A stretch of 64,000 bases of DNA, taken from Crambe crambe (lineage: Eukaryota > Porifera > Demospongiae > Poecilosclerida > Crambeidae). Of this stretch, positions 14,701 through 26,051 are shown piece by piece; the first letter of the stretch is position 1, and the number at the start of each line of letters is the position of its first letter. Where the stretch lies: positions 4,663,488-4,727,487 of the forward strand of contig OZ004585.1 of assembly GCA_963924555.1 (NCBI GenBank). The letters are read 5' to 3'. The position numbers and the translations under genes are program-made. A model generated the notes under the pieces. It was not told where the DNA came from and searched no databases. It was given only the letters and a program-made list of their open reading frames with translations.

Positions 14701-17700
14701 AATATTGCAAAACTCGCCAACATGCATTAGTGTGTGGGCTTCTTTTGACAACCAAACCATCATGAATACTTTGTTTCCTCTCTAATCAATGGCTTATGCA
14801 TGTAGCTACATATTGAGCTCAATACAATGTAATCATAGGGAGAGTGGTTTCAGTAGTTGATGCACTAACTGTCTGGCCAGGTAAGAACCATAATCTGACG
14901 TGAATAATAGCTACAAGCACTCACCAATATCTGATCGAGTTGATTGTTGAGGATATACAGTCAATGTGATTGTAATGTTGATATTGTCTCCCCTTAGTGA
15001 CAAAGAGGCCAGATTTTGCTCCACAATGCATTGAATTGCGTACTGTTTTTCTTCCATTATGACTAAATCAAGCTCACCAGTCATGATTTCCAAGGTCGTG
15101 TTAATCGTGTTACTTGTTCTATGAGTTATATTTATTGAGATCCCATTCTGTTCACAGCTGTCAGGACCACAAGATGATCCATTGAACATCCACCTCACAC
15201 TGATGTTACTTCCTCTAGCATTGCAATGAAAGATAGCTGTGTCACCATTTGTTATTGTCTGGAATGAAGGAAGAAGTTTAGTTATTGCACTTCTCTCTAT
15301 AAGAATAATATGCAGCCAATAATAACAGCATTCCTCATGGAGTTATATACACTGTACCTAGTACTTTGATTTCCATGAGGGGTCCGGTAATATCCAATAT
15401 TTGACAACGTTGAGAATCAGAGCATTGTCTGAATTTTACTTTACATCGGAATACAGTAGGACTTGAAATCAGTACAAAAAGGATTCTGCTATCTTGAGAG
15501 AATATATATTCTTTCTCTGAATCATTCATTAACCGTATTGGAGTTGAATTCACAAGTTGCTCCCATATTATAGTGTAAAGACTGCGTACAGTAGGCAGTG
15601 GTATGGGGCACATCAACATTGCAGATGCATTACAGAATACATCAGTAGAGAGAGTTTGATTAGATACAGTTGGGATAGCTGCATTAATAATAATCATTGC
15701 TGCAATTAGGAAAAGGTACTAGACAACTTGTGTAGCAGAAATGAGTTATTGAGATATTGATCAAAATTCTTAATTTTAGAGTAGAATTGGAATCAAATCC
15801 AAAGGAATTTTAGTTCAGAAAAATTATAATGGTCTATATAACTAGACTAAGTGAACGTAAATCATAGCTGATTAGCTATACCACATGTGATATGTCCACT
15901 TTGAAAGTATATAATATTATTATATTCAAGAGGCTGTTGGTACGTGTAGCTCACGGTCTGTATGTAAGTGCATGGTAATTATTATGTGACGCTAGCTAGT
16001 GCATACATAAAATATAAAAGTGCGGAGTCCTTTCATGGTACCCTCACATCTTTATAATTTTTGTACATTTTATTTAATAGATAGCATATGGATGGTAATT
16101 TTCAAGGTACTACCCTCTGCATTAACTATCTGCATATCTTCTCATTTCTTCTTCCTCTCATTTAGTTTAAGTTCCTGAAGATATCGGGCAAGAGCACATG
16201 ATCACTGCTTGATCTACACTGTGACCTTAATTATTATCAGCTCTGTATGTCATGCTAAATAAACTTACTCTATGACTCCTTTCGGAAAACTTGGTAGTCA
16301 ATGTTATAAAGGACCAGTGATGCAGCTAAAAGAGGCATGGTAGTAGCTCCCTGTGACATATTGGTGACCGCACATTGGTGACACAATGGCATGAGATGAG
16401 AAGGAATCTTCAAAATAAAGGATAAAGTCAAGGGAAGCAGCTAATAAGATGCCATGTCTCACACAATCGACAGAGCCTTTCCAGTATCATTCTGCTGACT
16501 ACTTAGGAAGATGCTGTATAATGGCATATGTTGAAGAAGAAAAAAACAAGCAGGGAATAATTTCATTCACTTCTGAAGAAACATACAAGCAAGAAGACCT
16601 GATGCTTAAATAAAGATCTTCTATGTACACTTTGCTTAAAGCTCACTTTCACAGGTAAACAGAAAGAGATGTCTATCTTAGCTATGCATTGATCTTTCAA
16701 TCTTTGGATAATTGAAACAATAGAAAACTAGAATTATTATTTTAAAGCTATGGTTCATTCAGTCCCGATTACAATCCAGCATACACTATAAAGAGGAATG
16801 GCACAGATGCCCCATTGTAACACTTGTCTTGCAGTAGAGTAACTCCATGGCTTCGAAGTGGTATATCATAATTGTAGCATTAGAAGGAAGGAATTAAATG
16901 TTTATGACACCAACTTGTTGCTATTTTTACTGGTACGTAGCTCTCTCCAAAATTTGTATATACCCTTTTCCAAGTACTATCATGAGACTATAAGTAGCTA
17001 TAATACTAGCTACATGGGATAGGAAACCCACATCACCCTATGGTGACAAAAAGTGTTGAGTGCTATCTTTGTCTTAAGTTTGAGTTTATATAGGCCCTTC
17101 TTCTTTCTCTTCCTTTTGTGGGTATAGGGCATTGATGCCACTGTATCCTATGCACGTAGCTACTTCAGGAAATTAAAATTTCTGCATGCATGATCATGCA
17201 GACTTAATTCTGCAAATCAAATTGCAAAGTGCATACTAGCTAGATATCCTGTATTTGAGTACATAGCTAGCTATAGCTACATTATAGTTCATGTGTATAG
17301 CTATAACTGGAGCTCAATACAGCAAAATATTGTTGCTATACTTAAACCCCTATGTAACTAACTTTGAGTAAATACAGAGTTCATTATACAACCATAGCTA
17401 GATAGCTAGCTAGCTACAAACAAATTACCAGCAAACGAGATGTCTCCCGAGTGTTCTTCCCCTATTGTGCAGCGAATAATTGCCTCAGAATCCCTTGCAA
17501 TATTGTAGGTCAGGTAGTTTCTATTGGTGTCTGTAGGCTGATCTCGGAGTAACGCACCCGTGCTGTTGTAGAACTTGAATCTTGCATTTGAGCTAGCCCG
17601 GCCGCCACTGTCTATACATTCCAGCCTTAACACATTCGGAGCTTCTTCTGAAGGTTTATAGAAGTCCAAAAGAGGCCTACCAAAAATCACATGGATTTCG

Positions 17701-25200: not shown

Positions 25201-26051
25201 GGATCAGTTCCTACATAACTTCTTTTTGATTCAATATGTTATTACGTAATTGGAGCAGGTCCCAACATAAACTTGGGACCAATGGGACTATGTCCCAACA
25301 TCAACTTTGAAAGCATGGATAAAGTCCATACATAAACTTGGGATCGATTGGACAGTGGTCACAATAATTTTGGACTGATCAAATTGGGACCAAATCCAAT
25401 CATCAACTTGGGACCGATGGGAACAGATCTTAACATCAGCTTGGGATCAATGGGACCATCCAATGGAATCAGGTCCCAACACCAACTGAAGACATTCCCA
25501 ACATCAACTAGGGACCATTATCACTAATAATGTAATCAAGCTTTGTAATTAACAAGCTATGCACAATCTTGTAATATTCTGTGCTGCTCTCATCAGCATG
25601 CACGGAACAATGGCATCTTTTGGTTCCCATTATTCAATAGTATGTAGATACTATATAACTACATACAAATCTAAACTTTTTCAAGAATATATTGTACAGG
25701 TAGGACATTGCATGTACAACATTGTAGCTAATAATTACCATAAAACGTGATAGCCTTTGAGTATTCTTCTCCAGTAATGCAGCGAACACTTGCCTCGAAA
25801 TCTTCAGTTATGTCATATGTGAAATAGTCCTCATTTATGTCTGTAGATGCATTACTGATAAGTACACCCATACTGTCATTAATCTCAAATCTTGCATCGG
25901 GATAAGCCGTACCGTCAATTGGATTTTGACACTCAAATCTGAACACATTTGGAGCTTCCCTTCGTGAAGAAAAGTGGTAGCCCAAAACAGGAATCCCCAA
26001 GACAGTATAGATGGAGCACATAATTATAGTGCTAATAAGCAAATAGACCAT
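22208..26051 (-). CDS. Second RTK-type ectodomain cassette (signal/Ig1, Ig2, Ig3)
   Basis: Three exons homologous to cassette 1: 25739-26051 (ATG, signal-like MVYLLISTIIMCSIYTVLG, then FECQN and VRCITG), 22741-23076 ([18 protein letters not shown]) and 22208-22564 (FQC...RW, CGPDDC loop, EQNLQ). Lengths are 313, 336 and 357 nt. All acceptors and donors use the same phase as cassette 1, each donor leaving one G. Every frame is open with no lesion. No TM or kinase exon follows before the RTK start at 17.7 kb. It may splice into the shared TM/kinase exons below, encode a secreted product by read-through, or be a stranded duplicate. Exons are near certain; gene status is open. Confidence 0.75.
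23941..24882 (-). repeat. Hairpin-ended repeat, near-complete copy
   Basis: One end carries GGCTGGATATACAGAACAAA; the other has GGCGGCGCGCGCGGCCGTCC, then CATCCCTACATAGAGAGTGC TACCGCACTCTCTGAT. The same order appears inverted at 59365-60420. The terminal AGAGAGTGC-GGTA-GCACTCTCT is a perfect 9-bp stem with a 4-base loop. No protein recognised. Confidence 0.7.
24955..25520 (+). repeat. Diverged minisatellite, unit about 32 bp (GGGACCAATGGGACCAGGTC)
   Basis: Roughly sixteen imperfect units of CAACTTGGGACCAATGGGAC CAGGTCCCA with many substitutions and indels. GGGACC and GGTCCC within a unit are inverse to each other, so each unit can form a small hairpin. The open frame across it is a by-product. 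Confidence 0.75.

Follow-up and report, generated by a model that had tools for sequence, protein, structure and literature searches.

Genes with variable first exons, such as those of the protocadherin, UGT1 and GCNT2 clusters, are described in the consulted part of one report as tandem paralogous 5′ cassettes placed before one downstream block, with compatible phases (PMC1885805). Marine sponges, according to the consulted sections of two further papers, possess two receptor classes with Ig-like domains, one of which comprises receptor tyrosine kinases (RTKs) (PMC2248247), and an Ig-like domain is cited for the RTK of Geodia cydonium (PMC12018476). In the current report, we describe a locus of the sponge Crambe crambe in which one ectodomain cassette of a kinase receptor gene is preceded by a second, and we propose that the second is most likely half of a different gene. 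Paired receptors of vertebrate immune clusters (i.e., KIR and LILR) offer another comparison, since similar ectodomains are there attached to different signalling ends within one birth-and-death array.

The analysed window is the 64,000-nucleotide stretch C8:4663488-4727487 (contig OZ004585.1), and the genome searched comprises 143 Mb in 119 contigs; positions given without a contig are those of the window. As in a protocadherin- or UGT1A-type cluster (judged from the part of the literature consulted), two paralogous 5′ cassettes lie above one block, on the same strand and in the same phase. The locus differs from such clusters in that its cassettes are not duplicates of one another within the cluster but fall into separate classes in a tree, in that the last donor of the upstream cassette is a GT of weak context, and in that the arrangement was not seen at five other RTK loci within the stretches examined.

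Organization of the locus

All exons of the window described below lie on the minus strand. The RTK gene begins with cassette 1, which consists of exon 1 (17429-17735; 96-97% identity to the RTK paralogs at C8:4387k and 4593k), exon 2 (15358-15678; 89-90% to the two nearest RTK paralogs) and exon 3 (14925-15296; 96-97% to the same two). These are followed by a transmembrane (TM) exon (8438-8630) and by eight juxtamembrane and kinase exons within 337-8036 (7975-8036, 7792-7914, 6364-6450, 5841-6058, 5666-5778, 2702-2867, 2290-2432 and 337-484). Signal and ectodomain, TM and tyrosine kinase are joined in one open frame of 749 aa, with a Pfam PK_Tyr_Ser-Thr match of 8.1e-85. Matches of the ectodomain to Pfam Ig fall below the cut-off; the predicted models of exons 1 and 3, the two exons modelled, are all-beta, and no Foldseek match to them reached E 0.001 (the best were 2.3e-03 for exon 1 and 2.3e-02 for exon 3), the top rows including Ig- and FnIII-type proteins, all above E 0.001.

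Cassette 2 lies upstream and consists of exon 1 (25739-26051; an ATG with a signal-peptide-like start and the N-terminal domain, donor GGTAATT), exon 2 (22741-23076) and the putatively Ig-like exon 3 (22208-22564), preceded by a 5′ flank (26052-26148). Its exon positions, open frames, GT/AG borders and the one base carried over at every donor, all reported in an initial annotation of this DNA, were confirmed. In tblastn, the three exons of the two cassettes matched with E values of 4e-20, 8e-34 and 1e-35, a likeness far above chance. From their phase-identical exon plans, the initial annotation had proposed that two promoters feed alternative cassettes into a single TM/kinase block, in the manner of protocadherins or UGT1A. 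It is consistent with this design that all junctions are phase 1 and that a conceptual splice from exon 3 of cassette 2 to the RTK TM exon, at 8630, is in frame. The identity of the plans holds, but a phase-1 plan is common to the whole family and is therefore uninformative on whether a kinase is shared.

Class membership of cassette 2

When 16 ectodomains were placed in a tree, cassette 2 grouped with eight kinase-free cassettes (100/100), and the five RTK cassettes, cassette 1 among them, came together at just 82/81. Per-exon identities agree with this placement: cassette 2 is 79-87% identical to its four closest kinase-free paralogs, as against 40, 59 and 55% to cassette 1, and its exon 1 alone shows 82-87% amino acid identity to four close paralogs of the kinase-free, short-tail class, as against 40% to cassette 1. 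The 5′ flank is likewise common to short-tail paralogs; in blastn searches, positions 26148-26056 matched three short-tail loci, with shorter matches at two more, and the RTK loci examined yielded no match in their 5′ flanks. The intron after exon 3 is also homologous to that of the short-tail class, down to 21476. By sequence, then, cassette 2 belongs to a kinase-free, short-tail sister class and not to the RTK class, which argues against a cassette serving the neighbouring kinase.

Assignment to this class depends in part on sequence similarity and on a kinase being absent, because not all members show a TM exon and tail. Among the eight group-mates of cassette 2, a TM exon with a YEEI tail follows in only three and a second TM type in three, and no homologous TM was found in the stretches examined for the remaining two (S5124 and S4867). 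For all ten kinase-free cassettes in the tree, the corresponding counts are five with TM and tail downstream (that of S4499 being weak and partial), three with the second TM type, and the same two without a homologous TM in the stretches examined. S5124 is otherwise intact, so cassettes lacking a TM recur and might be used.

The initial annotation had also considered that cassette 2 might be a recent, stranded duplicate. That it is stranded agrees with the evidence below, but a recent copy of cassette 1 is ruled out, as the cassettes belong to different gene classes and differ at dS ~0.8, with 54% amino acid identity.

The spacer and the absent 3′ end

No TM or kinase exon had been noticed between cassette 2 and the RTK gene, and homology searches bear this out: the interval 22207-17736 gave no match to the TM or kinase exons of the RTK gene, nor to TM or tail exons of the short-tail type. 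Since its own TM and YEEI/YEDI tail are not found there, cassette 2 is a fragment rather than a complete short-tail member. A hydropathy scan of the same interval yielded four weak TM candidates, each of which falls within a dispersed repeat (one starts at 18680, and the other three overlap at 18223-18181); they are not credited as a cryptic TM exon because the same scan gives comparable candidates elsewhere (14373 and 28588).

The homology of the exon 3 intron to the short-tail class ends at 21476, next to an element with CACTGTAAAAACAA terminal inverted repeats (TIRs) flanked by TA (18963-21455). The rest of the spacer is a dispersed repeat (17770-18941) with copies on C1, C3, C5, C6, C12 and C17 and elsewhere on C8, which ends ~35 bp before the RTK start codon. 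In blastn comparisons with its two nearest paralogs, the RTK gene has only ~27 bp of upstream sequence in common, and the repeat has therefore displaced the RTK gene's own upstream region too.

Because cassette 2 keeps the 5′ flank of its class and that of the RTK gene has been replaced by the repeat from ~17770, read-through from cassette 2 is conceivable, which favours the shared-kinase design to some extent. A related, bolder reading is exon shuffling, whereby transcription would begin at the short-tail promoter belonging to cassette 2 and the transcripts would be joined in phase 1 to an RTK gene that has lost its flank, the C8 array more widely being a set of paired receptors with interchangeable ends. 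We regard this as quite improbable. If true, the locus would yield a kinase receptor bearing the ectodomain of the sister class, and the array would couple one ectodomain type to a kinase, to a YEEI/YEDI tail, or to a second TM with a YSTV tail.

A damaged duplicate upstream of cassette 2

Upstream of cassette 2 lie several pieces that the initial annotation had missed. Copy A (32332-33350) duplicates exon 3 of cassette 2 in damaged form; it comprises an exon 3 remnant (~33291-33040) and ~0.7 kb of intron, and is 95.7% identical to 22623-21476 (941/983 aligned columns, gaps left out). One deletion lies inside its exon 3 and another spans the donor, which is gone. Its TM exon, of the kinase-free type, is at 27364-27466 (88-91% amino acid identity to TM exons at C8:5138k and 5129k), and its tail exon is at 26888-26975, with a disrupted frame and two TAG codons inside the match. 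The order of exon 3, intron, TM (27466) and tail (26975) is colinear with the gene at C8:5133-5128k. Cassette 2 thus lacks a 3′ end and copy A lacks a 5′ end, so the two are complementary half-genes.

One might suspect an assembly artefact here, with the TM and tail belonging to cassette 2 put in the wrong place or collapsed within a repetitive array, given that the region holds a recent 95.7% duplication and that a TM-tail pair of the right class sits upstream rather than downstream. However, these upstream TM and tail exons line up colinearly with copy A and show damage of their own, and the DNA below cassette 2 consists of clearly defined repeats; we consider such an artefact extremely unlikely.

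We conclude that cassette 2 is most likely the decaying 5′ half of a neighbouring kinase-free receptor gene in a birth-and-death family. Its class, its absent 3′ end, the broken copy A, the repeats of the spacer and the altered cysteines and donor are read directly from the sequence; from these we infer the following order of events. Complete sisters have this ectodomain followed by their own TM exon and then a tail with YEEI and YEDI, and a tandem duplication would have produced two such short-tail genes at this locus. The upstream one, copy A, would then have lost exons 1 and 2, part of exon 3 and its donor, with its tail frame broken, and the downstream one, cassette 2, would have been deprived of its TM and tail exons at a breakpoint where the TIR element and the dispersed repeat now lie. 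Cassette 2 would thereby have been stranded, probably without function, beside an independent RTK gene, which has cassette 1 as its ectodomain. On this view, the recency of the loss would account for the open frames of cassette 2, without any need to suppose that it is used. A candidate new gene architecture is thus removed and is replaced by a clear case of birth and death, with two complementary half-genes beside a kinase receptor.

Several other features of the window were observed. A foldback (MITE-like) element lies at 10794-10999, and a related copy at 33357-33564 abuts the 5′ break of copy A. Above copy A, at 34000-36400, there is a long, fragmented, coding-looking stretch that appears transposase-like by eye, and two long coding stretches that resemble each other and are oppositely oriented occur at 38800-41900 and ~53300-54900 (side matches in tblastn at 40957-41058 and 53365-53466, among others).

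Cysteines, splice donor and substitution rates

The frames of cassette 2 and the donors of its exons 1 and 2 are intact, and changes are seen at other positions. An otherwise conserved exon 2 cysteine, present in 16 of the 17 copies examined, is Ser in cassette 2 alone, and an exon 3 cysteine, present in 14 of the 15 copies with a residue there, is Arg in cassette 2 alone. Copy A retains the exon 3 cysteine, and further copies examined (two of exon 3 and one of exon 2) keep the cysteines that cassette 2 lost; an exon 3 cysteine is changed in two RTK paralogs as well. The exon 3 donor of cassette 2 reads GTAGCT where close relatives have GTAAGT. From 52 exon ends considered, 13 were dropped (the match not ending at GT) and 39 family donors were scored; at 2.84 bits this donor is the lowest (next 5.09, median 11.66), with cassette 2 kept outside the training set, which costs its score a little.

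These changes bear on both ways in which cassette 2 might be used. To share the kinase, the weakest scored donor of the family would have to skip the three exons of cassette 1 or join the second of them, and the domains so displayed would be without two conserved cysteines. Neither do other loci offer a parallel: none of five further RTK loci (4374k, 4485k, 4582k, 4812k and 4892k) has, directly upstream, a whole set of exons 1 to 3 that is without its own end, within the stretches examined, and for the two nearest RTK paralogs the 6.4 and 8.4 kb examined upstream each hold a single cassette. Together with the kinase-free class of cassette 2, this leaves the proposal that alternative cassettes share one TM/kinase block unsupported, and we judge it very unlikely. 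Alternatively, read-through of the weak donor could allow cassette 2 to be expressed as a secreted or loosely anchored decoy. Read-through would add 79 codons in cassette 2, as against 4 to 26 in seven other translated cassettes, and S5124 and S4867 are also without a detected TM; the long extension is, however, not common to paralogs, and the loss of two conserved cysteines again counts against this reading. The decoy seems unlikely.

The initial annotation had further suggested comparing substitution rates between the cassettes. The dS of ~0.8 speaks against a recent duplication, as noted, and the branch ratios are suggestive only. The cassette 2 branch carries 38 nonsynonymous and 10 synonymous changes (1.05 per site), a neutral-like ratio, with 0.41-0.92 for four sisters and 0.50 for cassette 1 against its near paralogs. 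The difference from the four sisters pooled (41 to 19, some changes common to two sisters being counted twice) is not significant (Fisher p 0.28), and fast-evolving receptors can look neutral, so dN/dS was set aside as proof of decay.

One ectodomain type with several ends on C8

The cassette 2 protein has at least 145 matches in the genome, of which at least 133 are on C8 (within 3.92-6.13 Mb, and counting those of the window itself) and at least 12 on C13, C18 and C20, these counts being lower bounds because scoring was limited to the best candidates. C8 also carries at least 27 kinase N-lobe exons at 3.9-6.2 Mb (the last three just 58-64% identical, one of them with an internal stop), and kinase-free tyrosine tails gave 59 matches genome-wide, 29 of them on C8 at 28 places over roughly the same interval. 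Leaving aside S5124 and S4867, for which no end was found in the stretches examined, three kinds of end follow the ectodomain in the C8 loci studied in detail (five blocks totalling 200 kb, plus 10 kb more): TM1 with a kinase; a TM exon and then a YEEI/YEDI tail; or a second type of TM whose tail contains YSTV. The gene at C8:5133.5-5128.7k is a complete kinase-free example, with exons 1 to 3, TM and tail in order and the TM ~1.25 kb below exon 3.

The two C8 receptor classes may, by analogy, be the counterpart of the Ig-like receptor classes of marine sponges (RTKs and adhesion molecules). The likeness to Geodia-type receptors, compared by description only and from the consulted parts of the sources, is that there are two Ig-like classes of which one is an RTK; here both classes lie within one C8 array. 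The likeness to KIR and LILR concerns the layout of ectodomains and signalling ends, and in the C8 array one class carries the kinase itself. In the literature searched, from which most subscription journals were out of reach, no paper was recognisable as describing this array. Since kinase and kinase-free receptors there bear one type of ectodomain, the array is well suited to studying the exchange of signalling ends in an animal genome.

Further arrangements were observed within the array. The second TM and tail type (DDPNYSTVR) lies below exon 3 at C8:4871796-4871452, 4833531-4833187 and 4828646-4828296 and at L037:7783-8127, and at three of these four loci a YEEI tail exon then follows, possibly providing alternative 3′ ends. 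S5124 (C8:5127070-5112001; L027, L028) has intact exons 1 to 3 and a good donor, with no homologous TM module within 12 kb below and one unrelated hydrophobic candidate 8 kb off. At C8:4485001-4505000 (L033, L034), a mirror image is seen, in which an RTK gene has a partial exon 1 only (exons 2 and 3 were not found there), its examined TM and kinase exons are 89-100% identical to those of the window, and the RTK gene itself lies immediately below a short-tail gene that has both a TM and a tail of its own. Copies of a short-tail-type exon 1 (C8:4909928-4910242 and 5174852-5175169) lie upstream of two related RTK loci; between the first of these and its RTK gene, exons 2 and 3 were not found. Outside C8, relatives of the YEEI/YEDI tail (38-50% identity) are clustered on C6 at 5.0-5.14 and 7.74-7.91 Mb.
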